From positions 1 through 64,000 of the forward strand of contig WJME01000033.1 of the NCBI GenBank assembly GCA_014728115.1: 64,000 nucleotides of DNA, read 5' to 3'. Made by a program: the position numbers and the translations under genes. The notes under the pieces were generated by a model. The model had not been told where the DNA came from. It did no database searches and saw only the letters and a list, made by a program, of their open reading frames with translations. Shown here piece by piece: positions 24,255-50,223 of the stretch; positions within the stretch are counted from its first letter, which is position 1, and every line of letters starts with the position of its first letter. The stretch is from Candidatus Zhuqueibacterota bacterium. GTDB lineage: Bacteria; Zhuqueibacterota; Zhuqueibacteria; Residuimicrobiales; Oceaniaggregativiventaceae.

Positions 24255-25265
24255 TCAAAAGTGTAATGAACCGGAGATTCTATGACTATCTCCTAATTCA
24301 TGCGGAACAAAAGCATAGTCGAGCGTTAGCCATTTAAAAGAAATGCCAGCACCTGCCGTCATCTCGTCATCATAGTATCCTGCACGAAGCGCCAGCGTAT
24401 GAAAAAACCTGGCTTCAGCACCGATATGGCGTTCATCATACTGGCCGAATTCTTTATCAAATGAAAGGGTGATACGACTCTTGAAACGTGCCAAATAGTG
24501 AGACGCAGCCACACCGGTCATGATGTTCATCTGCATCGGATCTTTATGATTGGATTCAGTGTTCCAGCTAATACTCGAACTGGTGAGATCCCGGACGGCA
24601 GCCCCAACTCCGATCCACGATTTGGGCTCATTTTTAATCAAGGTATAGCTGGTAATCCTCAAGAGCGCTCCGGCATCTATGCCCTGTCCGGTACCTGTTT
24701 TATCGTCCAATTTTTGTTGAATATATTTACCGGTCATTCCCAACGAAAGCTCAAAAGGGATAATCTTTGGATCAAATTCATCGCCCATCACAAGATCAAA
24801 ATATCGGGTATGGGCCATGGTTATTAGTAGAGCATCTTCGTTATCCTGAAAATATCCCTCGGCTTTTCCGGTACTGCGATATTCTGATCGGGTCAGACGA
24901 TCATAACGCGAACCTTGGAGTTCACCATAGCGGGGGATCTCGTCAACGCCCAGTCTGATCCATCCCAACGTAAGAGAAAGATTATGCTCCAGACCTATGA
25001 CGGCATGTGCAGAATTGTATTGAGCGAGTCCATCGAAAATAGGAACATGTTCGAATTGCAGCGAAATCGCCGAGCCATACGGACCGCCCGCAGGATTCCA
25101 ATATGCAGAACTGGCATCATTTGCCAGGCCGGTAAAGGCACTTCCCATTGCCAGGGCACGTGCCCCCACTCCGATACGCAGAAAATCTGCAGTATATTCT
25201 CCGGCAAAAACAGGTTGAATGAAACAGATCAGACAGAAAATAATCAAAAATATATATTTTAACAT
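24255..25265 (-). CDS. porV: PorV/PorQ-family outer-membrane protein
   Basis: A 336-residue outer-membrane beta-barrel protein. It has a signal peptide ('MLKYIFLIIFCLICFIQPVFAGEY') followed by the family hallmark 'FLRIGVGARALAMGSAFTGLANDASSAYWNPAG' and a C-terminal strand ending in Phe (GSLHF). PorV-type proteins form a shuttle or attachment complex with PorU in type IX secretion. The start is the ATG at 25265 with GAGG six bases upstream. It lies directly after porU (20-base gap), which supports the assignment over the related PorQ/UPF0164 paralogues. Confidence 0.88.
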   Translation of the reverse strand: MLKYIFLIIFCLICFIQPVFAGEYTADFLRIGVGARALAMGSAFTGLANDASSAYWNPAGGPYGSAISLQFEHVPIFDGLAQYNSAHAVIGLEHNLSLTLGWIRLGVDEIPRYGELQGSRYDRLTRSEYRSTGKAEGYFQDNEDALLITMAHTRYFDLVMGDEFDPKIIPFELSLGMTGKYIQQKLDDKTGTGQGIDAGALLRITSYTLIKNEPKSWIGVGAAVRDLTSSSISWNTESNHKDPMQMNIMTGVAASHYLARFKSRITLSFDKEFGQYDERHIGAEARFFHTLALRAGYYDDEMTAGAGISFKWLTLDYAFVPHELGDSHRISGSLHF

Positions 25266-25285
25266 ATTACACCTCATCCTTCGAA

Positions 25286-28200
25286 CTATTGTAGTTTGGC
25301 CATTTTTTCGATGCGTTCGATTCTTTTATCTTGATGCTGGGCAGTGAATTTCAAATAATAGACCCCGTTTGCAATTTCATTGCCCTCCTCATCGAGACCA
25401 TCCCACTCGTATTCATAGTATCCGGTGAGTTCATATAACTCTATGCTGCGTATGAGCCGGCCGGAAACCGTATATATGCCAAGGGTAACCTTTTCAGCCA
25501 CTTCTGTCAGGGTAAAAGCAATCACGGTTTCATCTACAAATGGATTAGGATGATTGGCAAGGGTAACCAGTTCAAACTCGGAAGCGACTGAAAATTGCAC
25601 CTCTTGCTCGGCAACATTGCCGTTAATATCCACTGCCTTTATCCAAAGGGTATGGGGCTCCAGCGTCAATTCCGGAGAAAATGTCACGGTGACCCTTTTA
25701 CGTGATTCTGGTTCCTGATAAATGCTTACCTCCTGAGCAGGGATTGGAAAATTATCCAGGGAAAGCTGTATCGGCTTTAGACCGACATCAAATCCGCTTT
25801 CATCTTCAAAAGAAATGGTAAAGGTGGGATTCGTCGCTACCCGATCCCCATCGGCAAAATTCTGCCCCTTTACACCGACGAAAATTTTTGGAGCTGTATG
25901 ATCAGTACTGGCAAACATTGCAAATGTATTATATCCGACAGGAAGCGTCGCACTCACCGTATGCTTTTCCGGGTCCAGTTCGCTCTCTAATCCGTTCCAG
26001 GTCTCGGTTGAATCGTTCCAGGCGTACATGCGAAGCGCAGTCTGTAAACTTGTGGTCACAGAATCATTGGGATTATAATACACCTGCACAGTCATCGGTT
26101 TGGATAATTGCATTGTCGAATCAGTCCATATCACCTGACAAGCATACCATCTGTTGACTCCTCTGGGATTGATGGGTTGAATACTGACTTGTTCAGCTGC
26201 TTCAAGATAGGAAGCATCATTCCGATATCGGTAAATCATCGCACCATTGCCACTCGGTGAGCCCGGTGGAATATCCACTGAATAGCCTCCATCAGCAGAA
26301 TAAATGGGGCCGCCTGAACCCTTTTTAGCGGAAATGACATATTGGGTACTATTGGTCAGGTTATTTTTTTCATTCGTTTCTTTGACATCATTTTGCACAT
26401 CGACCTGTATGGTAAACTTGGCTAAGCCGAGCAACTCATCGGGTAAGGAGAAAAACAGACTCGTATCGGCTCCTGCCGGGATACCGGATTCCAGGACTCT
26501 TTCTTCGAGAAGATTGTTGGGATTGATCGTCAAGCCGGAAAAAACAGCCAATTTAAATGCACCGCTGGGCATCTCACCTGCATTTCTCACCGTTATCCGT
26601 AAAGCAGGATCAGAGGACCCGGTCACTGCGACGGAATTATATTCGGTAAATAAATCAGGCAATTTTTTTATCACATATGAATCACCCGGACTTTTAAGCT
26701 GTGTGCCATTATTGCCATTTATGACATATTTGAAGGAGATTCTTGTACCGCCCGAGCGGGTCACAGGGACATCGCTTTTCCATTCACCCGGCTGGCCCTC
26801 GACTTGACGGCAAGGCACGTTCTGCCAATTGATCTGGTCGGCTGTCCATTGGACAGACATTGATGCAATGCCTTGTAATGAAGATTTGACCTGGTCTGGT
26901 ACATTGATAAAAAAGGTGACAGGTTGCAAGTGATTCGGTTCAGCTGGCTGGTGTGTAATTGTCACCGGCCGATCGATGTTGAATGATTCGGCAACCGCGC
27001 TGGTCCCCTTTGCATGTCGATAAAAAACCCTCAAAATTCCTTCGCCCCAGAGGCCTGGCCAATGTTGGCGAATATCATTTGTGAGTTCAAAAACATCCCC
27101 TGAAAATTTGCCATCCGCAATCGTCAGATTTTTTTCCAGCAGGAATTCGTCCTCGTGATCGAATACAGAAACATTGACTTGTGTATCTGCACCCGGAGTA
27201 GGGATTTCACCGCTGAGAGAAAGTGTTTCGCCATCAGTCAGAATGGATTTTGAGAGACTCACATCGATATTCTCATCAGCGATTTGCAGTTTGGAAGCCG
27301 GATCCCCCATGAGAATATAATTTTTCATATGATCCCAGTATCCTGCTCCTTGTTGTTGGGCATTGAATTTGCCAAGAGTTGTAATTTCACCCAGTGTTCT
27401 GGCATTGTGCACAAAAATGGCTTCATGCAATGACTCGTGCATATTATCATAATACCCGATATATGCACGGCCGGCAGAACCGAAATGAGCGACAATCCCC
27501 TTGTCCTTTGCTTTAAGCAGTTCTTCACCCAATGAAGGAATTTCAGGATTATCAAAATGGCCGACAAAACATGTGATACTGAAAATAACCGGATACTTGT
27601 TTTGATTATGTAAAAGTTCAATGTCTTTCACCAGAAATAGATCGGTATCGAGATAAACCCCTCCGCCACCGTGGCCTAAAAAAGTCAACATGAGTTGACC
27701 CTGATTAAAATAATTTGCCAGATCTTCAGTAGTGCCAAAATAGGGTGACTCTGCGGAAGTATTGAGAAAATTGGTGATCATTCTTGCGGGGATATGATCC
27801 CTATAAAGGGTCTTGGCCATATTTTCCAGTCCCGTATCCGTACCCGTCAATAGACATACTTGCCGCTGCCAAGAATCTATATCACTCTTTGTTTCATAAT
27901 CGATAACCTTATTTACAAGATTGATGGCTTCATCAACAGATCCTGCAGGTAAGCGACCCACAAAAAGATCCGGCAAGAGATCATTTCCCTGTACAGTCAC
28001 AAAATAATTATCTGATGAAGTCATTCCCCAGGAACGGGTATACTCCATCATACTGGGTACGAATGATTTTGCGCTGTCTTGTCTTGCAACACTCTTGTCC
28101 ATCAAATGCGTGGTATCCCCAAAAATCAAAAGATGGAGAGGGGCCGGACGCCGCCAATGGTGGTATGCATAAGAGATAAAACGCTTGATAGCATGAGGAT

Positions 28201-30100
28201 CATATAATCCGTGAGAAAACTCGTCATAAATATCCTGCACATCTACCAATTGAACGCTTAGCCCCTGACTTGACCGAAAATCAGCCAGTTCTTGAGCGGA
28301 TTGCATGAAATCGGCATGCGTGATCAAAATGTAATCGGCTTGTAATCCCGTATCTTTGAGATTCGATGACTCGTCTTTGACAATGTCCATAACTTTTTTG
28401 GTTGCATCTCTATTCACCGCATAGACAGTAGTTGAGGTATGAATTCTATTTCCAAACCAGACTGAAAACTTGCCATCCTTTTTACGGGTTCTAAAGTTGG
28501 TAATTTGTTGTCCGCCTTTTGTCAGGACATATAATTGGTCGCTTGCAAAGTTGGACATCTTTATAATGCTATTCGAGTTTCCCGCCAAAAAGAATTCCAG
28601 CATATTATTGGTTGAAATCAATTCTTTTTCATACTCGATAGCCAGCCAATTCAACAACACGGCATCGACATTGACCCCTTCTAGATCTTTTGGTAAGAGA
28701 AACGAAATTCGATTTGCTTCGGATTTCAAATCATCGCTGAAAAAGAGAGATTCAAACAGATATTCGGTTTTACCATCCCAAATTGCATTTCCGATTTTAC
28801 GGCCATTGAGATACACTCTCACTTTATGATCCGGATTGGCTGCAGGGATACTTGTTTGGCCAAAAAATGAAGCCTGAATTTTCACTTCTCCCTCAGGTTT
28901 GGGATGAGCAATGGGCAAATCAAAATGAGTTGCACCGTTTTCCCATTGATCCTCTGGCCCTTCCCAATGATTCAATTGCTGCCAAAACCAGTGATCCAGT
29001 TCTTCCTGAGGCACAAACAGCAAGCGTTGATAGGTGAGATCCTTTTCAAGATGGATACGCGACCGAGCATATCCGACCGTATCCGCATTCGCAATGTCTA
29101 CGGAACCGGGGATCTCGGCGAAACGGGCGCCAGCCCCTTTTCCCCATGTCAACCAATAGACATTTGTTTCCGAATAAAAATTGAGATAAGAATCTTTACC
29201 CGAGTTATGTTCACCGATAAAAATAATTCGGTCCGTTTTATCAAATGTTCCGTCTTGTCCACCTTCGACAAGAATGGGAACAGGATTTCCCCGATTGCTA
29301 AGAGCTAATGAAGAAGGAACGATACTTTGGAGATCGATTCCGGCTTTGATCAATTCATCACCTGATACCGAATAGACCCCATCCTCTTCAACCAATACTT
29401 TATAACGATAGGGTGCCAATCCTTCACTGGTAAGGGACTTTTTCAGCGAGTATACGCTTTGTCTCCAGGATTTGCATTGTTCATAATTCAACAACCCCGA
29501 GCGATACAATTCCTCAAATCCCGAGGATCGCATGGCAGCCACAGTGTTTGACAAGCGTTTCACGGGTGCAGAAAACGGAAAATCGATTCGTATAGTTGCC
29601 CGCTCGAGCAACTGGAGTAAAGTTTGCTTTTGGTGATAACGGGCCGGATTGACCGACAACTTTACCACACGTTGTTCGCGCCAAAAAGCAGGATCAGAAA
29701 TGTCAAAAAATTGCGCGGGATACCACTCGTCCATCTCTTTCAGGGGTTCCTCCAAAGCTGGGTCGGCCGGTTCAATGTTTTCCAGTTGAATCGTGCGATA
29801 TTCGACATTCGAGACACTCAGACTGACCTCTCCCTCGCCTGGTACACCAATCATGGACTGGCTCATAGGTAGACGAGGTAAGCCTGGCTGGCCGAAATAA
29901 CTAAACCCAGGCATAATGACTCTATTATACCAGGTATCGTCTAGACGGGTCTGAATAATAAAAGCGGAATCTATAACCACATCAAATTGAATAAAGGATG
30001 TATGGGTTTGCAGATTCTCTATATGAAAAGATTCATCTGCCTTTAGTGATTGCAGACAAAAGATGATCAAAAACAAAGCTGCCCAATGTATGCGTTTCAC
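25286..30100 (-). CDS. porU: T9SS sortase PorU (C25 gingipain-family peptidase) with sorting domain
   Basis: A 1604-residue secreted protein starting at GTG with AGGAG upstream. It has a signal peptide (about 1-21), a long N-terminal part, and a C25 cysteine-peptidase domain around residues 590-970 ('DYILITHADFMQSAQELADFRSSQG' onward). The expected catalytic pair is visible: His810 in 'TFLGHGGGG' and Cys844 in 'SITCFVGHFDNP'. CARDB/Ig-like segments follow, then a FlgD-like sorting domain from about 1517 ('ANHPNPFVDETVIAFTL') to the end. PorU cleaves the sorting domain from T9SS cargo and attaches cargo to the surface. It is markedly longer than the Porphyromonas protein because of extra Ig-like domains. 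Followed by porV. Confidence 0.92.
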   Translation of the reverse strand: MKRIHWAALFLIIFCLQSLKADESFHIENLQTHTSFIQFDVVIDSAFIIQTRLDDTWYNRVIMPGFSYFGQPGLPRLPMSQSMIGVPGEGEVSLSVSNVEYRTIQLENIEPADPALEEPLKEMDEWYPAQFFDISDPAFWREQRVVKLSVNPARYHQKQTLLQLLERATIRIDFPFSAPVKRLSNTVAAMRSSGFEELYRSGLLNYEQCKSWRQSVYSLKKSLTSEGLAPYRYKVLVEEDGVYSVSGDELIKAGIDLQSIVPSSLALSNRGNPVPILVEGGQDGTFDKTDRIIFIGEHNSGKDSYLNFYSETNVYWLTWGKGAGARFAEIPGSVDIANADTVGYARSRIHLEKDLTYQRLLFVPQEELDHWFWQQLNHWEGPEDQWENGATHFDLPIAHPKPEGEVKIQASFFGQTSIPAANPDHKVRVYLNGRKIGNAIWDGKTEYLFESLFFSDDLKSEANRISFLLPKDLEGVNVDAVLLNWLAIEYEKELISTNNMLEFFLAGNSNSIIKMSNFASDQLYVLTKGGQQITNFRTRKKDGKFSVWFGNRIHTSTTVYAVNRDATKKVMDIVKDESSNLKDTGLQADYILITHADFMQSAQELADFRSSQGLSVQLVDVQDIYDEFSHGLYDPHAIKRFISYAYHHWRRPAPLHLLIFGDTTHLMDKSVARQDSAKSFVPSMMEYTRSWGMTSSDNYFVTVQGNDLLPDLFVGRLPAGSVDEAINLVNKVIDYETKSDIDSWQRQVCLLTGTDTGLENMAKTLYRDHIPARMITNFLNTSAESPYFGTTEDLANYFNQGQLMLTFLGHGGGGVYLDTDLFLVKDIELLHNQNKYPVIFSITCFVGHFDNPEIPSLGEELLKAKDKGIVAHFGSAGRAYIGYYDNMHESLHEAIFVHNARTLGEITTLGKFNAQQQGAGYWDHMKNYILMGDPASKLQIADENIDVSLSKSILTDGETLSLSGEIPTPGADTQVNVSVFDHEDEFLLEKNLTIADGKFSGDVFELTNDIRQHWPGLWGEGILRVFYRHAKGTSAVAESFNIDRPVTITHQPAEPNHLQPVTFFINVPDQVKSSLQGIASMSVQWTADQINWQNVPCRQVEGQPGEWKSDVPVTRSGGTRISFKYVINGNNGTQLKSPGDSYVIKKLPDLFTEYNSVAVTGSSDPALRITVRNAGEMPSGAFKLAVFSGLTINPNNLLEERVLESGIPAGADTSLFFSLPDELLGLAKFTIQVDVQNDVKETNEKNNLTNSTQYVISAKKGSGGPIYSADGGYSVDIPPGSPSGNGAMIYRYRNDASYLEAAEQVSIQPINPRGVNRWYACQVIWTDSTMQLSKPMTVQVYYNPNDSVTTSLQTALRMYAWNDSTETWNGLESELDPEKHTVSATLPVGYNTFAMFASTDHTAPKIFVGVKGQNFADGDRVATNPTFTISFEDESGFDVGLKPIQLSLDNFPIPAQEVSIYQEPESRKRVTVTFSPELTLEPHTLWIKAVDINGNVAEQEVQFSVASEFELVTLANHPNPFVDETVIAFTLTEVAEKVTLGIYTVSGRLIRSIELYELTGYYEYEWDGLDEEGNEIANGVYYLKFTAQHQDKRIERIEKMAKLQ

Positions 30101-30126: not shown

Positions 30127-30354
30127 TTATTCTTTATCTCCAAGTAGATCAGTAACATAGTCTGAAAGTTTCTGAGCAAAAAATTCAATGCGGTCAAACA
30201 TTTGCTCCTGTTCCACTGTCAGTTGCGGTCGTACTTCATCTCCGAAAACAGCTATATATCCTAGCAAACCGTGAATAAGGCTACGTATCTCGTGTGAAAG
30301 TCGAGAACGCCCTTGATTGTCACCTCCTTGTTTCATATTCTCAGAGTTAGCCAC
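30127..30354 (-). CDS. Stand-alone HisKA (dimerisation/phosphotransfer) domain protein
   Basis: Only 75 residues. After a polar lead comes 'SRLSHEIRSLIHGLLGYIAVFGDEV', the H-box of histidine-kinase DHp domains with the phospho-accepting position at His21, then a second helix 'LTVEQEQMFDRIEFFAQKLSDYVTDLLGD' that fits the DHp hairpin. There is no ATP-binding domain, and the next gene starts soon after, so it is not simply the front of a kinase broken by a frameshift. It starts at GTG, sharing one base with the stop of the ArnT-like gene, and lies just before porU. It could be a phosphotransfer or kinase-dimerisation partner for kinases elsewhere. Confidence 0.6.
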   Translation of the reverse strand: MANSENMKQGGDNQGRSRLSHEIRSLIHGLLGYIAVFGDEVRPQLTVEQEQMFDRIEFFAQKLSDYVTDLLGDKE

Positions 30355-31595
30355 TATAATTGTGCCTCCATATTTGGCCGAAACTTTTGTTTCAGAGCTC
30401 CTAACAGGTGATAAAACGCTCCGGATGCGATGATAATCGTCACAAAATCGAGAGGCAACCGGAATCTTACCTTAGCGATAAACGGTGCATGCACCAGTGT
30501 GTATGCAATGGCCATCAAAAGCCAGAGTAAAAGCCACTTTTGATGTGTTCTTCTCAGAGCGAACATCCCATAAATCATCAAAAGCCACAGCGGAGTGACA
30601 CTCAAAATACTCGCCCAGACCACATGTGGAGAATTCTCTTGTCTTTCTGTGGTTGGTGAAGGTGTAATCCGCCAAAAGGCAACCCCTTTTCTCAACGATC
30701 TCTTTACGAACTGAAAGGGTTTTTCCTGAATATAGTCAAAAGCAAACCGTCGCAAGATCGAATCTCGCCTGCTTTCCGAGTCGACGCCTTTGAGTGCTTG
30801 AAACACCTTTTCTTCAAAAGTCCGGATTCCTGTGGTCGTAAGGGGAGCCTTTGCATTATTGCCCAGATAAAGATTATGCCCCATATTGCTTACCAGGCCT
30901 ACAAACCCAAAGGTCTTGTGGTTACGCCAAATCCACGGGACAGTGACCAAGACAGCAATAAAAACATAGATCATTGCAAAGATCAAACGACGCTGTGGCC
31001 TTTTCTGACCAAACCAAAACAACCATATCGCAATAGCCAGCAAAAGTATACCAGTGATCGGTCGACTTGAAATCATCCAGCCTCCAGCCAATCCTGCCAG
31101 AACAAGATAAATCCAGGAGTCACGGTTTTGAGCCTTTACGGCTGCCCAGATCGTCAAAATAAGCAAAAAACCAATCCATGTGGTGGCCAGGATGGGCCCC
31201 GTGATATAGATGAAATAGGGATAAAGAGCTGTATAGATGACCGCAAACCAGGCAGCATATTGATTATAAATCTCGAGCGACAGATGAAAAATCAAAAGCA
31301 TGGTCAAAGCCATCAAAGCAATATGAAACAATCTGATTTCAGTGATGGTATCCACTCCAATCAAACGCATTGCCGCCAAAACCAAAGGATAGCCCGGAGC
31401 CCGAAAGGCAGTGGGCTCGCCTTCGTCGATGACAAATTCCTGCATATCAACGATATTTTGAGATATCCTGTAAAAATCTTTTTCATCTGCCCAATAGAGC
31501 TTTTCATCCAGTTGGGCGATATATATCAGCCGAATCCCTGTAGCAATGAGAATGACCAGGAATAGACTCAGCTTGCTTTTATTTACTAACGACAT
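30354..31595 (-). CDS. ArnT/PMT-family membrane glycosyltransferase (GT39/GT83-like)
   Basis: A 413-residue integral membrane protein with about ten to eleven hydrophobic segments. The first periplasmic loop has the acidic motif 'KLYWADEKDFYRISQNIVD' and 'AFRAPGYPLVLAAMRLIG', the pattern of the PMT_2 family, which transfers a sugar from a polyprenyl-phosphate donor to protein or lipid on the outer face of the inner membrane. Its place in the porU operon suggests it may glycosylate secreted proteins or the glycolipid to which PorU joins its cargo; that is inference. It overlaps the preceding lipoprotein gene by 17 bases. Confidence 0.82.
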   Translation of the reverse strand: MSLVNKSKLSLFLVILIATGIRLIYIAQLDEKLYWADEKDFYRISQNIVDMQEFVIDEGEPTAFRAPGYPLVLAAMRLIGVDTITEIRLFHIALMALTMLLIFHLSLEIYNQYAAWFAVIYTALYPYFIYITGPILATTWIGFLLILTIWAAVKAQNRDSWIYLVLAGLAGGWMISSRPITGILLLAIAIWLFWFGQKRPQRRLIFAMIYVFIAVLVTVPWIWRNHKTFGFVGLVSNMGHNLYLGNNAKAPLTTTGIRTFEEKVFQALKGVDSESRRDSILRRFAFDYIQEKPFQFVKRSLRKGVAFWRITPSPTTERQENSPHVVWASILSVTPLWLLMIYGMFALRRTHQKWLLLWLLMAIAYTLVHAPFIAKVRFRLPLDFVTIIIASGAFYHLLGALKQKFRPNMEAQL

Positions 31596-32595
31596 GCTTG
31601 TACAACCCTTTTCCTTCAGAACCTACAATAACGGCCCGATCTGTTGTATTGATGGTTTTAATTGCTGTTAATTCCTTCCCATCAATCCCTTCCCCGAACT
31701 TGCTCCAGGTTTGTCCGTCATCCAGGCTCCGATACACGCCATTATCCTTGGTAGCAGCCCATATTTCGGAGACATGATCCGGATCATACCAGATTGAATT
31801 GATATGCTGCCAATGAATTTGTGATCTGATCGAAATCCAGCTTTCCCCCAAATTCGAACTCTTGCAAACATCACCAGAGACCATACAGGCATATAATTGA
31901 CTCGTCATATGGGGATTGAAAACAAATTTGAGAGCATGATCATATCCAAAAGATCCGGTCTTGATCCCGGAATTGGAAAGCTGCCAGGTATTGCCCTTGT
32001 CCGAAGAAAAATAAATGCCTTTATAGAGTTTGCTGCACCAAACCTTATTAGGATCTTGAGGATGAGTAATCACGGCATCCACCCGACCGCTGATTTTTCC
32101 ATCCATCCAGGTTTCGCCCTGATTTTTACTATAAAAAAGACCTCGCACAGTGCCGGCCCAAAACATACCATCTGTTGCAATATGAACAGAGATCACTTGT
32201 TTGTCGGTTCGTTCAAACCAGGCATTTTTCCATGTGCTACCCCCGTCATTGCTCAGATAAAGACCATCTGACTTTGTGCCAATGACCAACCGATTCGGGA
32301 CGATAGGATCAACGGCTATACAGAGGATATAGGTACTGTTTAATCCACTTGACAGGTTTTGCCAGGTCTTGGCACCATCTGTACTCTTGAAAAATCCTTG
32401 TATGGTCGCCACATAAATAGTTTGCTTTGCAAACGGATCGACAGCCAGATCCTCAATAACCTGGCTCTCGATCTCTTTCCCGACAGAGAGCCATTCATCA
32501 GATACCTGAGGAGGATCTTTTTCTTTGGGTTTTGTCGGGTTATCATCGCAACTGAAAAGGAAAAATAAGGCTAAAATGAATATTCCATATTTCAT
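31579..32595 (-). CDS. Lipoprotein with BNR/YCF48-like beta-propeller repeats
   Basis: 338 residues. The N-terminus 'MKYGIFILALFFLFSCDDNP' is a lipoprotein signal with Cys16 as the lipidation site. The mature part contains repeats of the sortilin/BNR type with 'STDGAKTWQNL', 'SNDGGSTWKNAW', 'SKNQGETWMDG', 'SSDKGNTWQLS', 'SSNLGESWISI' and 'SLDDGQTWSKFG', that is the S-x-D-x-G-x-x-W Asp box, spaced about 45 residues, so a six- or seven-bladed propeller is likely. It is probably exported to the outer membrane. First gene after a sigma-54-type promoter and upstream of the T9SS genes. Confidence 0.85.
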   Translation of the reverse strand: MKYGIFILALFFLFSCDDNPTKPKEKDPPQVSDEWLSVGKEIESQVIEDLAVDPFAKQTIYVATIQGFFKSTDGAKTWQNLSSGLNSTYILCIAVDPIVPNRLVIGTKSDGLYLSNDGGSTWKNAWFERTDKQVISVHIATDGMFWAGTVRGLFYSKNQGETWMDGKISGRVDAVITHPQDPNKVWCSKLYKGIYFSSDKGNTWQLSNSGIKTGSFGYDHALKFVFNPHMTSQLYACMVSGDVCKSSNLGESWISIRSQIHWQHINSIWYDPDHVSEIWAATKDNGVYRSLDDGQTWSKFGEGIDGKELTAIKTINTTDRAVIVGSEGKGLYKHVVSK

Positions 32596-32637
32596 ACCAC
32601 CCTCTTGTTTTACATTTCAAACCAACTGATTGGCTAA

Positions 32638-32654
32638 ATGCAAAGATAATGCCA
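32638..32654 (-). promoter_or_regulatory. Sigma-54 promoter of the porU-porV operon
   Basis: On the minus strand the 17-mer TGGCATTATCTTTGCAT matches the sigma-54 consensus TGGCAYR-N4-TTGCW with exact GG-N10-GC geometry (GG at 32652-32653, GC at 32640-32641, plus-strand numbering). It is intergenic, and the expected start site is about 30 bases before the lipoprotein ATG. No copy of the repeat found before the exopolysaccharide operon is seen in the 170 bases upstream. Confidence 0.7.
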
Positions 32655-32827
32655 CCAGTATCAGAACGTTGACAAGTGGAATTCGTTTATAACTCTGCAT
32701 GAAATATATATTTTCAAAGGGGTTACAGCCGCGAACCAAATCCGGGATTATCAGAGCAGAGTGTAAAGTGACATAAAGTATACAGTTATGGGGAGATAGA
32801 TGCCACAAAAGCATGGACTCGGAGGAC

Positions 32828-33826
32828 TTATTTTCTTGACCATAAATATTCCAGTTCGGGCTTTTCCCGGAACCAAAAATCATATTCATGTTGTAACAGC
32901 GCTTTTGTACGATGGTAAAGATCGGGATCTATTGGAGGGGCAGGTTTAAAAAACAAGGACTTTGTCCAATCGGAAAAATAACGCATACCATTATCATCAA
33001 AGATCTCCGCAAGAGGACGACCCAAAAGTCGATGAGCAGGAAACGTTTTGCGCCAGGCCGTCATGATTCCTGATTTGGGAAGGGTCGCACTATTTTTCCG
33101 ACAGGGTATATAGACTTTGTCGCATTTTTCCAATTCTAAAAACTCCAAGACATTGTCCATAATAGCGCGAGGAGTCGAAATGAGGTGTTCCAAAAATACA
33201 ATCTTATAATTCACTTGGAGCTTTTTTAACAGAGGAAGCAACCAAAGACGATAAGAACTGAACGTGAAATAAGAAAACCAGGCCAAAGGATCCATGAAGC
33301 AAGATTTAAAGGGTGCTCTGAATGTGCGAGCATGATAATCAGGCCCAAAATACCCCGCATCGATATGACCGGCATGTGCTGCTCTCTCGCAGTTTGTCTT
33401 CTCGACATCCATATCGAAATTATCGTCAGGGAAAGAATCGACAAGCTCACAAAATCTTCGTTTGTCACGCACCGGCACGCGATTGGCCATATGCTGATAA
33501 GCAGAAAAAGCCCTCATTGCAGGATCGCGAACAAGAATAATAAATTTCGGCCGTTTGACATGGGTAAGAATTTGGATAAAAGCAGATTCGGAAAAGGCAT
33601 AAAGCGAGGATGCTTCCATGGGCAATACGGCCTTTTTCGGAAAAAGCGAGGCATACCAGTGCTCATTTTTTAAAATGACTTTTGAATGCTGGTTAAAGAA
33701 CAAAGGCTCTTTAACTCGAGAAGGTGATATTTGGGGATGCCTGCTGAGCATCTCAAAAAGGGTTGTCGTACCGCTTTTTGCAACACCGGGTATAAAAATC
33801 ATCTGATCAAACCAATATTCGCTCAT
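32828..33826 (-). CDS. Sulfotransferase (PAPS-dependent)
   Basis: A 332-residue cytosolic sulfotransferase of the heparan/Stf0-like class. The 5'-phosphosulfate loop is 'FIPGVAKSGTTTLFEML' near the N-terminus and the 3'-phosphate motif is 'FIILVRDPAMRAFSAYQHM'. 'KEPLFFN' also fits the family. It would transfer sulfate from PAPS to a sugar hydroxyl or amine. Start at the ATG at 33826 with AAAGGAGG seven bases upstream. As the last gene of the exopolysaccharide operon it suggests that the polymer is sulfated. PAPS-forming enzymes are not in the window. Confidence 0.85.
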   Translation of the reverse strand: MSEYWFDQMIFIPGVAKSGTTTLFEMLSRHPQISPSRVKEPLFFNQHSKVILKNEHWYASLFPKKAVLPMEASSLYAFSESAFIQILTHVKRPKFIILVRDPAMRAFSAYQHMANRVPVRDKRRFCELVDSFPDDNFDMDVEKTNCERAAHAGHIDAGYFGPDYHARTFRAPFKSCFMDPLAWFSYFTFSSYRLWLLPLLKKLQVNYKIVFLEHLISTPRAIMDNVLEFLELEKCDKVYIPCRKNSATLPKSGIMTAWRKTFPAHRLLGRPLAEIFDDNGMRYFSDWTKSLFFKPAPPIDPDLYHRTKALLQHEYDFWFREKPELEYLWSRK

Positions 33827-34548: not shown

Positions 34549-35817
34549 TCAATCGTGTGGCATAAGAAAAGAGTGTTTGCGATCTAGTTTTTTGATTTCA
34601 CCATAGACTTTATTTTCTTCACGACCCAGAACGGTTTTATAGGCCCGCAAAAGTGACGGCACTGAATGTTGCCATGATAAGGTCGAGAGGACTCTCTGTC
34701 TACCAAAGGCTCCCATTTGTTTACATCGTTGGGGATCTTGCACTAAATTGAGAATGCCCTTTGCAAAAGCTCTTGTATCATTGGCAGATACATAAAGCGC
34801 AGCTTTTGAGGCAGTAAGTTTTGTTTCATACAGATCAAATGAGACAATGGGTTTGGCGAACGTCATGTACTCCATCACCTTGTTCATGGTAGAGTGATTA
34901 GCCCATTCTGAATAAGGATCAGGATCGACGCAAATATCCGCTGTGGATAAATAATCGCACAATAGGTCATCAGAAATTCGACCAGTAAACTCTACAACCT
35001 CATTTAACTGCATTTGATGAGAGAGCGCCTGCAGATCGGCAAAAGACGGACCGCCTCCAATAAGACAAAAATGTACATTTTTGACTCCCAAATCATAGAC
35101 AAGGATACGAATAGAGTCAAGTAGATACTCTACGCCATCCTGCGGACACATTTCCCCCAGGTAACAGACCATATAGGGCTTTGTGCGCTTGAGTTCGGGA
35201 CGGGGTTTGCGCTGTTCGAGTCGATGTAAATCCGGACCCGTTCGTACCACAAACACGTTGCTGGCATGTTTCAACCCACGCTCGATGGCTACTGACTTGT
35301 ATGATTGATTGGTGGCCAGAACAACATCCGCAGTCGCAAAGGTGAGCTTTTCCAATAACAGAAGCGTTTTCAATACCCACTGGTTCGGCCTGTCTGCGAA
35401 TTTTGCCTGGTACATTTCCGGAGAAAGATCATGATGATCGAAAATGAATCGCACGCCTAACAAACGATAGATCCGGCCCAACAGAAAAAAAGTATCCGGA
35501 GGATTGCACGCATGGATGACATCAAATCCATGCCAAATATAAATTTTTGCGGTTAATATAGCGGTTCTGATCCAGGCATAAACGAATTCCAAAAAATAGC
35601 CCCAAAATCCAAACGCTTCGAATGGAATCGAATATCTGTAAACATGAATGTCGTCGAGATATTCATAAGAGCTGGAAAATTCTTTTGATTTTGGCGAAAT
35701 AACTGCAACCCGATATCCATGGTCTCTCAATGTTTTGGCTTCAAGCCAAACTCTGCGATCAAATGGCACTGGAAGATTTTGTACAATCATCAGTACTCTA
35801 CCAGCATATTCCTTCAT
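34549..35817 (-). CDS. Family 4 glycosyltransferase
   Basis: GT-B enzyme of 422 residues. The N-terminus 'VLMIVQNLPVPFDRRVWLEAKTLRDHGYRVAVISP' is the classic start of GT4 enzymes in EPS loci, followed by 'DVIHACNPPDTFFLLG' and 'FIFDHHDLSPEMY'. The donor domain begins near 'MVCYLGEMCPQDGVEYLLDSI'; the acidic region is 'EWANHSTMNKVMEYMTFAKPIVSFD'. It overlaps the upstream dehydrogenase by 20 bases. Sugar specificity cannot be read. Confidence 0.88.
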   Translation of the reverse strand: MKEYAGRVLMIVQNLPVPFDRRVWLEAKTLRDHGYRVAVISPKSKEFSSSYEYLDDIHVYRYSIPFEAFGFWGYFLEFVYAWIRTAILTAKIYIWHGFDVIHACNPPDTFFLLGRIYRLLGVRFIFDHHDLSPEMYQAKFADRPNQWVLKTLLLLEKLTFATADVVLATNQSYKSVAIERGLKHASNVFVVRTGPDLHRLEQRKPRPELKRTKPYMVCYLGEMCPQDGVEYLLDSIRILVYDLGVKNVHFCLIGGGPSFADLQALSHQMQLNEVVEFTGRISDDLLCDYLSTADICVDPDPYSEWANHSTMNKVMEYMTFAKPIVSFDLYETKLTASKAALYVSANDTRAFAKGILNLVQDPQRCKQMGAFGRQRVLSTLSWQHSVPSLLRAYKTVLGREENKVYGEIKKLDRKHSFLMPHD

Positions 35818-37120
35818 AATTCACCTCAATGCTTGCCGGAGTCGTGATATTTTGCAAATCAACCAAATCGATTAATTGATGCCCATTGCGCAGCTCTCTG
35901 ATCATCTCGACGTGTTTATAAGTCTTGTTGCCCAGAACAAGCAACTCAGAATGGCACAATAATTCTTGAATTGAATCGACAAGAATGGTTGAGATATGTG
36001 TAAGTTCTTTTTGAATATATTCGCGCGTAGAATCCAGATGAAGGGCATAGTTGATGATATCATCAAAAATTTTAACTTGATATCCATTATCAACAAGTCG
36101 TTCAACCAGTTCAATAATTGGACTTTCCCTCAGGTCATCGGTGTCCTCTTTAAAGCTCAATCCCAGAATACCTATATGTTTCTTGCCTGCCCTGGCAATC
36201 AGGTTATACGAGTGCTGGATATGCTCCTCATTGCTTTTTATGATAGAGTCTATCAAAGGCAAAAAAGTATCCAGTTTCTGAGCTTGCCGGAGAATCGCTC
36301 GAAGATCCTTTGGCAGACAACTTCCTCCAAACGCAAAACCAGGTTTCATATAAGTCGGAGAAAGATTCAATTTTTGGTCCTGTACCACGGCATCCATCAC
36401 TTTACGACTATCGACTCCCATGGCTTTGCAAAAGCGCCCGATTTCATTGGTAAAAGCAACTTTGAGGGCATGAAACGCATTGTCTGCATATTTCAGGACA
36501 GAAGCTTCTTTGAATGAAAGGTGGAAAATCGGCGTATCCAGAGCCTGGTAAATTTCGCAAAGCAAAGTGATGGATCTTTGATCATTCGCTGCAATGACGG
36601 TACGCGGAGGATTCATAAAGTCGTTTACCGCCACACCCTCCCGGAGAAATTCCGGATTCAATGCAAAGCCAAAATCAATGCCAGCAGTTTTACCGGATTC
36701 CTTTTCAATCAACGGAATAATCTGAGTCTCAACCATACCAGGTAAAATAGTACTGCGCAAGGCAATGGTCAAAAATGACGAACGATCCCTCAGCAGGACA
36801 GAAATTTGTTTACATACTCGTTTCACCGAAGAAAGATCGATTTCACCGTTTCGATTGCTGGGCGTTTCCACACAGATAAATAATATATCAGCATGCTTTA
36901 AGGCTTTTGCTATGTCCCCCGTTGCCTGCAAATGCTTGGTTTTCACCTGTTCTCGCAATAACTGATCCAAATCTTTTTCAAAAATGGGTGACAAGCCCCT
37001 GTTGATCATTGCGATTTTCTTATGATTAATGTCATAACCCATGACGCGGTGACCCAGACTTGCATAACAAGCTGCTGAAACACAACCGATATGTCCGAGT
37101 CCAAAGACGCTGATGTTCAT
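35798..37120 (-). CDS. Nucleotide-sugar 6-dehydrogenase (GDP-mannose/UDP-sugar type, AlgD-like)
   Basis: A 440-residue NAD-dependent enzyme that oxidises the C6 hydroxyl of a nucleotide sugar twice to give a uronic acid donor. It has the NAD loop 'ISVFGLGHIGCVSAACYASLGHRV', the central 'ALNPEFLREGVAVNDFMNPPRTVI', the catalytic cysteine in 'PGFAFGGSCLPKDLRAI', and 'GLSFKEDTDDLRESP' in the C-terminal domain. Several of these blocks look closest to GDP-mannose dehydrogenase (AlgD), but a UDP-sugar substrate cannot be excluded. It implies that the polymer made by this operon contains a uronic acid. Confidence 0.9.
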   Translation of the reverse strand: MNISVFGLGHIGCVSAACYASLGHRVMGYDINHKKIAMINRGLSPIFEKDLDQLLREQVKTKHLQATGDIAKALKHADILFICVETPSNRNGEIDLSSVKRVCKQISVLLRDRSSFLTIALRSTILPGMVETQIIPLIEKESGKTAGIDFGFALNPEFLREGVAVNDFMNPPRTVIAANDQRSITLLCEIYQALDTPIFHLSFKEASVLKYADNAFHALKVAFTNEIGRFCKAMGVDSRKVMDAVVQDQKLNLSPTYMKPGFAFGGSCLPKDLRAILRQAQKLDTFLPLIDSIIKSNEEHIQHSYNLIARAGKKHIGILGLSFKEDTDDLRESPIIELVERLVDNGYQVKIFDDIINYALHLDSTREYIQKELTHISTILVDSIQELLCHSELLVLGNKTYKHVEMIRELRNGHQLIDLVDLQNITTPASIEVNYEGICW

Positions 37121-37159
37121 TTTGAATTCCTTCCATTTTAGAACTCTTTGAGTTCGGGC

Positions 37160-38410
37160 CTAGACCGCCATAGTCTTTGCGTGTAAAGGGTCAACGCGAT
37201 TTTGCAAATTTTGATATAGGCTGATCATCTGATCAGCAACATGATTTATATCATAGCGAATTGTCGTTTGCCGGGCTCGTTTCCCCACTGTTTCTCTCAT
37301 CGTGCGATCTGACATTAATTGGAAAAGTTTTCTTCCCACATGTTCTGTATTTTCAGAATCGAATGCGAATCCATTATAATCATTGACAATGATACGTTTG
37401 GTTCCGGGTAAATTCTGAATGATTATGGGTAATTCACTCGCCATTGCTTCCAGAACAACATTCGATTGTCCTTCACTTTCGGAGAGATTGATAAATATGT
37501 CACATGCCTTAAAATACAAATCTACATTTTCACACCGATCTCTAAATTGCACATCAGGCAAAAGATCAAAGGTTTTTAATAGTTGATTCAGTTGAGACAT
37601 CGTAGCAACACTCTGTGTGTTAAAGTGTTGATTTGATGTCCGTAAATTCAAAGGACCGACACAAAGCAACAAGGGCATTGGCAGCTGTCTCTGTTTGAGC
37701 CAATTCATGACTTTAATAACCCTATCTATCCTTTTTCTCGCAATAAATGACCCTACATAGAGTAAAATTGTACGATTGAGTGGAAGCTGTAGTTTTTTTC
37801 GTATTAGGTTTTTGCTCATTTCGTCCACACTATTAAACAATTCTGTATCGACTCCATTGCTGATATTTGCAAAATGGATGCCAGGGTAATCCCGGAGATC
37901 ACTGTCATTGATGGGATTAATGATTCGCCTGATGGATTTCAATAGCATTTTGTTGATCCATCCATACGGTCCACGGGTCAGGCTCTCTATATCATCGAAT
38001 CCCAGGCGGGTAATCTTTTGTATCCCAGGCGTTCGGCTGAAAAACAAAAAAAGATTTACAGGTGCAATAAATGAATGAATATGAATCACATTGAAATGAC
38101 GAGCGTGAGCAACCAGATACTGAATCAATCGTATGGCAAACCAAATTCTCCAAAAGATCGTGGCCTGATAACGTGGAACACGATAGACTGAAATTCCATC
38201 TATATTGCTTTTTCCGATCCATTTACGATTAGAAGCTCCCGCCAAAACATGGACTCGACACCCTTTTCTCTCGAGAGCCAGGGACAGTCTATGAGCTTGC
38301 AAAGCAGCTCCATTGTATTCCGGCAAATAGGTATGGTGAATCATCAAAATTTTCAATCCTGAATGTAGAGATTCAGCACATTTATTCTGTTCGCTAGTAT
38401 TTCTTTTCAT
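37160..38410 (-). CDS. Family 4 glycosyltransferase
   Basis: A 416-residue GT-B enzyme with 'ILMIHHTYLPEYNGAALQAHRLSLALERKGCRVHVLAG' at the N-terminus, the donor-domain start 'LLYVGSFIARKRIDRVIKVM' and the E-x7-E motif in 'SESEGQSNVVLEAMASELPIII', followed by 'GTKRIIVNDYNGF'. It overlaps the upstream GT2 gene by four bases. Adds a sugar to the lipid-linked unit at the inner membrane; sugar unknown. Confidence 0.88.
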   Translation of the reverse strand: MKRNTSEQNKCAESLHSGLKILMIHHTYLPEYNGAALQAHRLSLALERKGCRVHVLAGASNRKWIGKSNIDGISVYRVPRYQATIFWRIWFAIRLIQYLVAHARHFNVIHIHSFIAPVNLFLFFSRTPGIQKITRLGFDDIESLTRGPYGWINKMLLKSIRRIINPINDSDLRDYPGIHFANISNGVDTELFNSVDEMSKNLIRKKLQLPLNRTILLYVGSFIARKRIDRVIKVMNWLKQRQLPMPLLLCVGPLNLRTSNQHFNTQSVATMSQLNQLLKTFDLLPDVQFRDRCENVDLYFKACDIFINLSESEGQSNVVLEAMASELPIIIQNLPGTKRIIVNDYNGFAFDSENTEHVGRKLFQLMSDRTMRETVGKRARQTTIRYDINHVADQMISLYQNLQNRVDPLHAKTMAV

Positions 38411-39396
38411 TGTAGACCTTTTGCTACCCTTTTACGATCATCCATCGTAGACATGCTGAGCATTCTTTTAAATGCTTGAACAAGTTGATAATTAAAAATC
38501 AGTTTATAGATCATTAAGGTCAGAGAATGCCGGAAACGGGATAATTTTTCTGCCAAAACAAGTATAGCAGGTGTCGTCTGATCATTCAAGACCAGTTTCA
38601 GAGCCGAATACTTGAGTTTTCGTCTTATCCTGCATCCTTGCACACAAAGGCCATATCGATTGACCAATTCTCTCTGGACTTCCGGTTCATGCGCATACCA
38701 GAGGGCAATACTTTTACCATATTTTTTTGCTTTATCCAGGTATTGCCCCCAGGTCATAGGATGATAATGGGTCGTAAGAATAGAATTATCAAAAACAAAG
38801 TTTGCACCCGCTTTCCACAATCGATATCCCAGTTCAGTATCCTCAGCAGCACAAAGCTGAGGATTGAATCCCCCGACTCGTATAAACAGTTGTCTCTTTA
38901 TTGAAGTATTGGCGGCTCGGAATGATTGCCATTGGGTATCAAACCGCTCCTTTCTGCCCAATGGCGGATTCCATATCCCATGCCGGACCTGATGCGGCAC
39001 GAGTAGTTCCTTGGCCATTTCCACGCGGCCCTGGAGAATCATGTTTTCCTGTGGATATGCTTGGTGATAAGCAAGGTGTTTGGAAATAAAATCGGGATGT
39101 ACATAGATATCTGCATCCAAAAATATCAACAAGGGAGCAACGGCTTGACTCACACCAAGATTCCGGGCGGCTCCGGCATTTGCCAGTTTACACTGGAGTA
39201 TTCTGATATTTAGCTGGCTATGGTGCCTGAATTGAGAAAGAAGAGAGAACGTGTCATCAGTTGAAGCATCATCGATAACAATGACCTGAAAAACATCAAA
39301 AGGACAGGTTTGCGCCTCTAAATTAGAGAGCACATTGATCAATGAATCCGCTCGATTATGCGTGGGAATGATAACTGAGATTTCGGGTATACTCAT
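38407..39396 (-). CDS. Family 2 glycosyltransferase
   Basis: GT-A enzyme of 329 residues: 'ISVIIPTHNRADSLINVLSNLEAQ', 'QVIVIDDASTDDTFSLL', the metal site 'LLIFLDADIYVHPDFI', and a C-terminal galactosyltransferase-like block 'FRAANTSIKRQLFIRVGGFNPQLCAAEDTELGYRLWKAG' with the catalytic ED pair. Located between the flippase and a GT4 gene in the exopolysaccharide operon. Substrate unknown. Confidence 0.9.
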   Translation of the reverse strand: MSIPEISVIIPTHNRADSLINVLSNLEAQTCPFDVFQVIVIDDASTDDTFSLLSQFRHHSQLNIRILQCKLANAGAARNLGVSQAVAPLLIFLDADIYVHPDFISKHLAYHQAYPQENMILQGRVEMAKELLVPHQVRHGIWNPPLGRKERFDTQWQSFRAANTSIKRQLFIRVGGFNPQLCAAEDTELGYRLWKAGANFVFDNSILTTHYHPMTWGQYLDKAKKYGKSIALWYAHEPEVQRELVNRYGLCVQGCRIRRKLKYSALKLVLNDQTTPAILVLAEKLSRFRHSLTLMIYKLIFNYQLVQAFKRMLSMSTMDDRKRVAKGLQ

Positions 39397-39406
39397 AACG
39401 AATCCC

Positions 39407-40819
39407 TTATGGTTGTCGTAATAGTCGTTTGATCAAGCCTATCAGTTCATGCAAGGATCCGGTGATCATCAAAAAAAAGACATATACCGCCACTCCTCCA
39501 GGTATTACAAGAACGGGTATCGATGATCCAAGACCGGACATGGCGAGACCCATTAATACCATACCTAAAAGAGGAAATTTAATTTGCTCAAAGAGTGAAA
39601 ACCTATCCAGTGTACGACGGACACTCAACCACTCTACAGACCCCAAAATGACTGCGCCGGCCAACATCGACACGGCCAGTCCCTTTTCTGCAAACAGAGG
39701 TATAAGCAAAAAAGAGAGCGAAATAGCAGTAATACTCCCTGACAAGTTTGCAATCAAATCCAATTTTTGCCGGCCATGGCTGATCAGAAATTGCGAAAGA
39801 ATGGGGATCATGGAATAGGGAAGTATTAACCATATCAGCAAGCGAAGAACGCCGGCTGAGGGAGCCATTTTAGGACCAAAGAGTGACGCGATAATATGAG
39901 GAGCAGAAAAATAGATCAATAGTGCTGCAGCGACAGTGATAATGGAGACATATCGCAGCGATGCACCGATAATAAGATGTACCTTTTCGGTTTGTTTAAA
40001 AAATTTGCTAAGAATGGGCAACAACGCCTGACCATATGCAAGTGCAACTGCCACGAGGATATCTACCAGTTTATGAGCAGCGCTGAAATAACCGGTCGCT
40101 TGTTCTCCCTTGATTTGAGTGAGAATGACAATGGGTATCGTCCAGTAGGCACTGTGTGCTATGGTAATCGAGATAAATGTCGGAATTTGCTGCAAATAAT
40201 AATACAAGACGGGCCGATTCAGAATCGCAACGGGCCGGGCAACCTGGACACTTGCAAAAACGAGGCACAACAGGTGTGAAACGATATGGCTCACCGCCAA
40301 AATCCAGGCGACTGTTTCTGCATTTTGATAAGAATTAAAAACGATCAGCCCCACAGTCAATAACAAAAAAATCCTGACAGTTTGTGCCACGGTTACCCAG
40401 TGTAATTTCTCTGCAGCCCAAAGCATGGCTGAACCAAAATGCATCCCTACACCGGTAAAGAGGGTGAGGCTCAAAATTCTGAGCACTCTACCGGAAGAGT
40501 CATGAAGAAAAGAGAGACCTACCATGGCAATCCACAGAAATAATGCTGCCATGGAACCTAAAAATAGGATCTGGGAAAAATATTCTCCAGCCTTTGGTCT
40601 GTTCCGAGCGACATCTTTGGAAAACAAAGGGCGTAAGCCCAGAGAGGATATCATGTTAAATAATTTGTATATCGCCATTCCATAAGCAATGGCTCCCAGA
40701 TCAAAAGCGGACAAGTATCTAATGACAAAAACCCAAAATAGTGCAGAGCCCAATCTGTTTACCACTTCTGTTGCGGTCCGGGCAGTGGTATTACGGAATA
40801 TAGATTTAAAAACAGACAT
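39407..40819 (-). CDS. Polysaccharide flippase (Wzx-like, MOP superfamily)
   Basis: A 470-residue protein with about twelve to fourteen membrane helices. The N-terminus 'SIFRNTTARTATEVVNRLGSALFWVFVIRYLSAFDLGAIAYGMAIYKLFNMISSLGLRPLFSKDVARN' is the typical start of the polysaccharide-transporter branch of the MOP superfamily. It would flip the undecaprenyl-linked repeat unit across the inner membrane. It is the only flippase in the window, so it might also serve the plus-strand locus. Ten bases follow its stop before the GT2 start. Confidence 0.88.
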   Translation of the reverse strand: MSVFKSIFRNTTARTATEVVNRLGSALFWVFVIRYLSAFDLGAIAYGMAIYKLFNMISSLGLRPLFSKDVARNRPKAGEYFSQILFLGSMAALFLWIAMVGLSFLHDSSGRVLRILSLTLFTGVGMHFGSAMLWAAEKLHWVTVAQTVRIFLLLTVGLIVFNSYQNAETVAWILAVSHIVSHLLCLVFASVQVARPVAILNRPVLYYYLQQIPTFISITIAHSAYWTIPIVILTQIKGEQATGYFSAAHKLVDILVAVALAYGQALLPILSKFFKQTEKVHLIIGASLRYVSIITVAAALLIYFSAPHIIASLFGPKMAPSAGVLRLLIWLILPYSMIPILSQFLISHGRQKLDLIANLSGSITAISLSFLLIPLFAEKGLAVSMLAGAVILGSVEWLSVRRTLDRFSLFEQIKFPLLGMVLMGLAMSGLGSSIPVLVIPGGVAVYVFFLMITGSLHELIGLIKRLLRQP

Positions 40820-40828
40820 GAATCGCCT

Positions 40829-41632
40829 CTATTTCTGACACACGAGCATTAAACCATTGCCCTCTTTATTATATTGAATAAAATCCAGCCACATGAGGAT
40901 CATCACAATGGGATGTAAAAAAATCAAATAGAGTGGAAACAACCATCTCACATAACGATGATATTGAACAAGGGTCACCAAATCATAGGACCAGCGACCA
41001 TATCGTCCGTACGTGCTGGTTGATTGCAGGCACTCAAAGCCGACCGAAACCGCTTTGGAGACCAATTCCTCTTTGGAATAATACCGTATATGGTCGTGTA
41101 GCTTGCCTGTTTTTGATTCCAGGATTTGGCGATCCTGAATCCGTTTTAGTGCATAGAGCACCCGTTTTTCCTGACTGGGGACATAGATAATCAAGATCCC
41201 TTTTTCATAAAGCGCATCATATAATTTTTCCAGGGTTTTGATGTCATCTTTGATATGCTCGAGCACGCTGTTGCAGAGGATAAAGTGATATCGATTTTTT
41301 TCGGTCAACTGAGAAATATCTCTGCTATAGAATTCCAAATTTTTCAAACCCATTCGCGCCGCAACATGATTATTATCCTGCACGCGTTGAATCATTTGTT
41401 CAAATCCGGTCACATTTGCAGAGGGGTATTTTTTCGCGATTCGAAAAGCAAATTGACCCATACCGCAGCCAGCATCCAGAAAGGAAAAATTTTGAGGACC
41501 TTTATTTAACTCTTTTTTTAATACAGAACACAAATACCACTCTCGAAGAGTCGTCATTCGTACCAGAATGAAAACCAAATGCCGTAAAAATATTCTTTTT
41601 CCTACCAAACGGGTCAATTCATCGAACCGCAT
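40829..41632 (-). CDS. Class I SAM-dependent methyltransferase
   Basis: About 267 residues from the ATG at 41632 (preceded by GGAAG; a longer read from 41686 lies wholly inside the polymerase gene). SAM motif 'FSFLDAGCGMGQFAFRIAKKYPSANVTGFEQ', then 'YHFILCNSVLEHIKDDIKTLEKLYDAL' and 'KGILIIYVPS'. The C-terminal 50 residues include a hydrophobic segment 'YVRWLFPLYLIFLHPIVMILMWLDFI', unusual for a soluble methyltransferase, which suggests membrane attachment near the lipid-linked glycan. Confidence 0.83.
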   Translation of the reverse strand: MRFDELTRLVGKRIFLRHLVFILVRMTTLREWYLCSVLKKELNKGPQNFSFLDAGCGMGQFAFRIAKKYPSANVTGFEQMIQRVQDNNHVAARMGLKNLEFYSRDISQLTEKNRYHFILCNSVLEHIKDDIKTLEKLYDALYEKGILIIYVPSQEKRVLYALKRIQDRQILESKTGKLHDHIRYYSKEELVSKAVSVGFECLQSTSTYGRYGRWSYDLVTLVQYHRYVRWLFPLYLIFLHPIVMILMWLDFIQYNKEGNGLMLVCQK

Positions 41633-43118: not shown

Positions 43119-43136
43119 GATCGATTCCTCAAGTGG

Positions 43137-43976: not shown

Positions 43977-43995
43977 GATAGACCTCATGCAATAA

Positions 43996-44958: not shown

Positions 44959-44972
44959 GACCACCACCGCCC

Positions 44973-45170: not shown

Positions 45171-45226
45171 GCTTCACCTCCTACAATTGACTGGTTCAGA
45201 TGTCTTTTCATTTGATCCTGCCCACC

Positions 45227-46690: not shown

Positions 46691-46727
46691 CACACATTCC
46701 CTTTCATTCTATCATTAAGGCGGCTGC

Positions 46728-50206: not shown

Positions 50207-50223
50207 AAGCAGAGATTATGCCA
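50207..50223 (-). promoter_or_regulatory. Sigma-54 promoter of the exopolysaccharide operon
   Basis: Minus-strand TGGCATAATCTCTGCTT matches TGGCAYR-N4-YTGCW with exact GG-N10-GC spacing (GG at 50221-50222, GC at 50209-50210, plus-strand numbering). The predicted start site is about 60 bases before the fibronectin III ATG. It shares the TGGCAT-N5-(C/T)TGC pattern with the site at 32638-32654. An NtrC-type activator is encoded 1 kb away. Confidence 0.7.

Follow-up and report, generated by a model that had tools for sequence, protein, structure and literature searches.

The EPS loci of the PEP-CTERM/exosortase (XrtA) type are under the control of PrsK-PrsR and RpoN (PMC1569441), and for the RpoN-dependent gene pepA the transcription start has been mapped (PMC9850573). 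In P. gingivalis the T9SS is controlled by PorY-PorX-SigP, SigP being an ECF sigma factor (PMC4800418), and PorU and PorV of the same organism are reported to attach cargo to A-LPS (PMC8545088, PMC5562754). For F. psychrophilum one study (PMC9723704) describes a sigma-54 (SM4) promoter which drives the T9SS adhesin operon remFG-sprCDBF, as confirmed by mutagenesis, ECF-type SM6 promoters for porU and gldN, and a mapped sigma-54 regulon which includes DnaK, GrpE-DnaJ and GroES.

The window, which is the whole stretch of 64,000 nucleotides that was analysed, belongs to a KSB1 MAG and not to a member of the Bacteroidota, on which the preliminary description had framed the T9SS background. Like the PEP-CTERM/PrsK-PrsR loci it combines EPS export, chain-length and ATPase genes from the same families with kinases and a receiver-type sigma-54 activator close by. 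Its -24/-12 promoters likewise have an enhancer-like element 5' of them, and an enzyme that sorts surface proteins is again linked to EPS. It differs from those loci in that the sorting enzyme is the PorU of the T9SS, the cargo has T9SS C-terminal domains, and the phylum is KSB1. As exosortase (PF09721) had no match in the present genome and the regulators remain under the PrsR and PrsK cut-offs (384.8 with a cut-off of 502.6 for the activator and TIGR02915, 62.3 with a cut-off of 300 for the kinase and TIGR02916) the locus is not a member of the PEP-CTERM system.

With PorY-PorX-SigP the locus has in common an apparent two-component control of T9SS genes, and a full-length PorX orthologue (706 bits, locus L293, G000 contig C12:23701-25245) occurs in this non-Bacteroidota genome too, so that other T9SS genes may in addition be under PorX-type control. 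In contrast to that system, with its ECF sigma factor and different promoter motif, a sigma-54 element precedes the sortase operon here. The C25-family PorU, the PorV-family protein and a glycan as the expected anchor are shared with P. gingivalis, whereas the sortase genes here are joined physically and, as it appears, regulatorily to an EPS locus. F. psychrophilum likewise has a sigma-54 element before a T9SS-related operon and DnaK and DnaJ among the common targets, whereas the accessible part of that study describes no EPS/activator supercluster. Sigma-54 control of porU-porV had been put forward as new. No published case for porU was found in the literature searched, most subscription papers lying outside its reach, and for the T9SS at large the claim has to be narrowed in view of remFG-sprCDBF (PMC9723704). 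Papers joining T9SS and KSB1 were not found in the literature searched.

The Sigma-54 Element before the Lipoprotein Gene

The element, called promoter C here, reads TGGCATTATCTTTGCA on the minus strand at positions 32639–32654 (32638–32654 with the T that follows), with TGG as -24 and TTGC as -12 element, and is located 43 nt upstream of the ATG (32595) of a lipoprotein gene. It has GG at -24, GC at -12 and the exact sigma-54 spacing (TGGCAT-N5-TTGCA) and differs from TGGCACG-N4-TTGCW at two less constrained positions (C6 to T and G7 to T). With an approximate sigma-54 matrix, written by us from general knowledge, it reached the top score of the window (16.8, followed by 16.2). The preliminary description had given this 17-mer as a match to both elements and as the best site of the window, and both its sequence and its rank were recovered. 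The runner-up at 37868–37883 (minus strand) lies inside a glycosyltransferase gene and is probably a chance match. An open reading frame overlapping promoter C (32617–32889) had no family match and was taken as spurious.

Within the 64-kb window the motif is not found above chance (5 matches with at most one mismatch, 3.2 expected), and what separates promoter C from chance are genome-wide counts and conservation rather than window statistics. In the 6.96-Mb genome, a MAG with 5% estimated contamination, TGGCAY-N5-TTGCW occurs 57 times versus 6 times for a reversed-pattern control. According to a simple codon-based gene caller, an approximation of our own, 42 of these 57 sites lie between genes, with the following gene in the same orientation, the coding share of the genome DNA being about 90%. 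Among the first 100 matches listed for spacers of 3 to 7 nucleotides N5 accounts for 32 and each other spacer for 13–24, and in an unbiased sample intergenic and correctly oriented positions were found for 8 of 11 N5 sites versus none of 19 sites with N3, N4, N6 or N7 (p = 3e-5). The distances from N5 sites to the ATG peak at 28–75 nt, and promoter C with 43 nt falls in this range. TGGCAT-N5-TTGTA sites in the genome are for the most part intergenic as well. The genome contains one RpoN with all three domains and about 33 strong matches to sigma-54 activators. N5-type sites precede dnaK, a dnaJ-type gene and two small-heat-shock-like genes (L171 5780–7708 and 9864–10823, L185 932–1351 and L190 5669–6118, respectively), and as these chaperone genes match the sigma-54 regulon of F. 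psychrophilum they were counted as support for the sigma-54 class. A weak sigma-54-like site, TGGCCTGAAATTTGTA, was also noted about 225 nt 5' of sprA (L265 10902–10917, minus strand).

Conservation in Relatives

A search for the same site in relatives, proposed as a check in the preliminary description, had a positive outcome in all three further genomes of the same family (G001, G002 and G003). In each of them the element is kept before the orthologue of the lipoprotein gene which heads the operon, in flanks that cannot be aligned, and the lipoproteins themselves have 31–35% identity. The elements TGGCATATTATTTGTA, TGGCATTATCTTTGTA and TGGCATATAATTTGTA are located 57–60 nt 5' of the likely ATG, so that with the present genome the placement before the orthologous gene is seen in four of four. 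What does not vary is TGGCAT and TTTGYA, with a constant distance between them. The GC of the -12 element reads GT at promoter C in all three relatives, which is also usual at site A of the cluster described below across the lineage. In the present genome TGGCA-N6-TTG[CT] has matches in 9 of 292 upstream regions, versus 2 of 292 in antisense, and with these background rates the chance of conservation in three of three relatives would be about 3e-5 to 3e-7. Site C is confined to four genomes in which sortase and EPS operons are separated and is absent in the 17 others examined; as these four form one family they represent one evolutionary event and not four.

The Sortase Operon

The operon downstream of promoter C, all on the minus strand, starts with the lipoprotein gene (31579–32595), which codes for Sortilin/BNR repeats and whose orthologues precede porU in about 20 KSB1 genomes. 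It continues with a PMT_2 membrane glycosyltransferase (30354–31595) which overlaps the lipoprotein gene by 17 nt, a small H-box gene of 75 amino acids (30127–30354), a porU-like T9SS sortase (25286–30100) and an outer-membrane protein of the porV/porQ family (24255–25277; 87.9 bits for NF033709, cut-off 90). Lipoprotein, porU and porV had been named in the preliminary description, and to these the PMT-type glycosyltransferase and the small H-box protein have to be added. The H-box gene had been missed in the open reading frame listing; it shares one base with the stop codon of the PMT gene and ends 26 nt 5' of porU. As it fills an apparent gap of 254 nt the operon is tight, with overlaps and a 26-nt gap, and leaves no promoter-sized gap after the lipoprotein gene; the 254 nt before porU are thus ruled out as a separate promoter region, the gene inside being conserved. 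The order of lipoprotein, PMT, porU and porV is kept, in order and class, in 17 further genomes as far as the contigs extend, with the PMT gene missing in one of them.

The sortase has the domain set of PorU, namely a Peptidase_C25 catalytic domain, a Propeptide_C25 domain and a C-terminal FlgD_ig/T9SS sorting domain, and because its score for the NCBIfam PorU equivalog NF033707 is under the cut-off (367.4 versus 420) it is named porU-like. Other T9SS parts in the genome are an SprA_N protein of 2062 amino acids, PorX and the PorV-family protein. The small H-box protein is HisKA/DHp-like (LSHEIRS...LLGY; HisKA 27.1 bits, cut-off 26.9) and consists of two helices without an ATPase domain. Its gene was found in 14 genomes, with an invariant histidine in an H-box of the SHEIRS type, and stands beside porU in most, not all, KSB1 genomes examined. 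A fold search with this protein gave no significant E-value, the best match being a histidine-kinase phosphotransfer domain. Together with the stand-alone receiver of the neighbouring cluster (50539–50955) it could form a phosphorelay.

The EPS/T9SS Supercluster

Upstream of the sortase operon the minus strand of the window carries EPS assembly genes from 34549 to 47708, which comprise export (SLBB), chain-length, PEP-CTERM-type ATPase, Wzy, Wzx, methyltransferase, glycosyltransferase and UDP-sugar dehydrogenase genes. The EPS operon is headed by sigma-54 site B (TGGCATAATCTCTGCT, 50208–50223), behind which follow a secreted fn3 protein (48882–50138) as the first gene and then a T9SS-CTD protein (47786–48850). 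Sigma-54 site A (TGGCATACTTATTGTA, 51016–51031) stands 60 nt before the gene of the stand-alone receiver-domain protein. Where assembled the cluster is arranged on one strand in the order of two kinases, activator, receiver, fn3 protein, T9SS-CTD protein, export, chain-length, ATPase, Wzy, Wzx, glycosyltransferases, UDP-sugar dehydrogenase, glycosyltransferase, lipoprotein, PMT, small H-box gene, porU and porV. Sigma-54-like sites were found at A in 13 of 14 genomes, at B in 10 of 13 and at C in 4 of 6, as compared to 4 of 93 other gaps and 3 of 33 antisense regions (p = 1e-17). The sigma-54 promoter which the preliminary description placed before the sortase operon is thus supported, and it is now seen to belong to a larger EPS/T9SS supercluster under putative sigma-54 control.

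The gene preceding the lipoprotein gene is on the same strand in all 17 further genomes, and in at least 14 of them it is a glycosyltransferase homologous to the one at 34549–35817 of the window, with a gap of usually about 10–72 nt, or about 215–240 nt in a few; G029 has another gene in between. The EPS operon thus runs on into the sortase operon in these genomes, of which there are at least 14. In G001, G002 and G003 oppositely oriented genes are inserted between the two operons, and in the present genome the two genes preceding the lipoprotein gene are on its strand. Three boxes of the type TTTAGTAAA/TTTACTAAA were observed upstream of promoter B at about 50320–50373 (minus strand). Most relatives have the box 5' of site B too, which may mean that a second regulator is active at this promoter.

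Candidate Activator and Enhancer-Like Element

The candidate activator (51248–52669, minus strand) has a receiver, a sigma-54 AAA+ and a Fis-type HTH domain, which is the NtrC/PrsR architecture, and is adjoined on the same strand by histidine kinase 1 (52679–53707) and the PAS histidine kinase 2 (53723–55552). An orthologue with 44–64% identity was found in 14 of 16 genomes searched, other matches reaching at most 46%, and it shares contig and strand with the sortase operon in 8 of these 14 genomes.

A 19-bp element, AGTGGCTTnnngGCAACAA, occurs about 100–140 nt 5' of site A in most genomes and about 180–200 nt 5' of site B in several. Its copies on the minus strand of the window are AGTGGCTTGTATGTCTCAT (51112–51130) upstream of site A and TGTGACATCGAGGTAACAA (50401–50419), 196 nt upstream of site B. 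The element was first spotted by eye, and a matrix was then trained only on site-A elements outside the present family; a dyad search had returned mostly AT-rich words and was discarded. Upstream of promoter C this matrix gave 18.3 in G003 (at 131 nt), 13.6 in G001 (135 nt), 6.3 in G002 (144 nt) and 4.35 in the present genome (about 154 nt), while among 258 background regions of G000 a score of 12 is reached by 0.4% and a score of 5 by 12%. The present genome has a weak candidate half-site, TGTGGCATCTATCTCCCCA (32789–32807, minus strand), with a score that does not stand out, about 150 nt upstream of promoter C in the position of the enhancer in relatives. The enhancer pattern has 12 matches in the genome versus 7 for the reversed control, and six of its seven intergenic loci have a sigma-54-like site at a distance of up to about 200 nt, among them sites A and B and the locus of a subtilase that bears a T9SS sorting domain. 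By this distribution a single activator is indicated for sites A and B as well as for C in two relatives; the same activator is likely to act at promoter C in the present genome.

The subtilase, a secreted protein (L230 1253–4297, plus strand), has a strong copy of the enhancer together with the sigma-54-like TGGTTCAGCTTTTGCA 45 nt 5' of its ATG and is likely to be cargo in the same regulon. A near-perfect palindromic copy, GTGGCTTTTATGTCACA, was observed at L304/L305 (G000 contig C283:5462-5479), 41 nt 5' of the gene of a signal-peptide protein of about 490 amino acids, with TGGCACACCTTTTGTT at a distance of 128 nt.

Alternative Readings of the Element

A chance match in AT-rich intergenic DNA would agree with a pattern count in the window that is not over expectation. 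Against it stand the preservation of the element in three of three relatives, the genome-wide behaviour of the site class and the placement 43 nt 5' of the ATG, and with the conservation test this reading is strongly disfavoured, to the point of being negligible. Very little probability also remains for a housekeeping promoter, either a Bacteroidota-type -7 box TAnnTTTG or a sigma-70 promoter TTGTCA-N18-CATTAT. The sequence TATCTTTG does fit TAnnTTTG in the present genome and G002, the sigma-70 match is 9 of 12 with a TG before the -10 box, and TATAAT lies within the element of G003. TAnnTTTG is broken in G001 and G003, however, and in the present genome it is found 25 times in sense and 22 times in antisense before genes, so that for want of enrichment the -7 box was rejected as an explanation; the sigma-70 reading was rejected as its -35 box is not conserved in relatives. 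Invariance is limited to TGGCAT and TTTGYA at their fixed spacing, and the N5 class of the same anatomy is specific for gene starts. A strand asymmetry analysis of k-mers for a housekeeping consensus returned mostly Shine-Dalgarno-like and T-rich words.

Two further readings concern the use of promoter C rather than its class. The sortase operon might mainly be read through from the EPS operon, that is from promoter B, with promoter C minor or relict. In favour of this the operon continues the EPS operon in at least 14 further genomes, the preceding genes of the present genome are on the same strand, and a terminator-like hairpin was not found in the gap on the minus strand. G001, G002 and G003 keep the element despite the oppositely oriented genes which separate the two operons there and make read-through unlikely in these genomes, and on balance we consider this reading improbable. 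Somewhat less improbable, though still the weaker choice, is a sigma-54 promoter served by another of the about 33 activators, for example one responsive to envelope or protein stress. The weak enhancer at promoter C of the present genome and the chaperones within the sigma-54 regulon would fit such a regulator. Against it, G001 and G003 have a good enhancer at this same distance, and the linkage of one activator with the cluster is conserved.

Overall, the best explanation is that 32638–32654 is very probably a working sigma-54 promoter which would be opened by an activator and drive the operon from lipoprotein to porV. The sigma-54 control of lipoprotein, porU and porV claimed earlier is thereby supported at the level of sequence, by spacing-specific sites at gene starts, conservation, RpoN with activators, and a tight operon.

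Proposed Mechanism and Its Meaning

RpoN-RNA polymerase would form a closed complex on the -24/-12 element at 32638–32654. This complex would be opened by an enhancer-binding protein of the receiver type, for which the PrsR-like activator at 51248–52669, phosphorylated by one of the adjacent kinases, is the most likely candidate, and transcription would start about 12 nt downstream of the GC of the -12 element. The transcript is predicted to span lipoprotein, PMT, small H-box gene, porU and porV. Across most of the lineage these genes form the 3' end of an EPS operon starting at sigma-54 promoter B, and in the present family inserted genes have split off the sortase operon, with sigma-54 control kept via its own promoter C. 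The outcome would be that polysaccharide, PorU sortase with PorV and T9SS cargo are produced together. Promoter class, conservation, synteny, the presence of RpoN and activators and the enhancer shared by the relatives can be read directly from the genomes, from which we infer transcription from promoter C and the identity of the activator which acts on it in the present genome. By analogy with P. gingivalis, the EPS might be the glycan that PorU joins to the cargo.

The best reading of these data is a sigma-54/activator regulon which joins EPS assembly, the PorU sortase and T9SS cargo. A more far-reaching proposal, which we regard as tentative and somewhat short of even chances, is that in KSB1 EPS assembly, PorU operon and T9SS cargo form a single regulon under one two-component sigma-54 activator which has an enhancer of its own, and that in this regulon PorU takes the role of the exosortase and the EPS is the glycan of PorU, an A-LPS-like anchor co-encoded and co-regulated with the sortase. 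The comparison suggests that exosortase/PEP-CTERM and PorU/T9SS, two unrelated surface-sorting systems of Gram-negative bacteria, have a common regulatory logic in their link to EPS, namely sigma-54 together with an activator of the receiver type.

Such control would extend the regulation of the T9SS beyond Bacteroidota and beyond ECF sigma factors. It also connects a T9SS sortase with a specific polysaccharide locus, both physically and in regulation, in a way that can be tested, and this has a bearing on the glycan used by PorU outside Porphyromonas. Control of both together would make functional sense if PorU required a glycan from the neighbouring locus, much as A-LPS is used by PorU of P. 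gingivalis.
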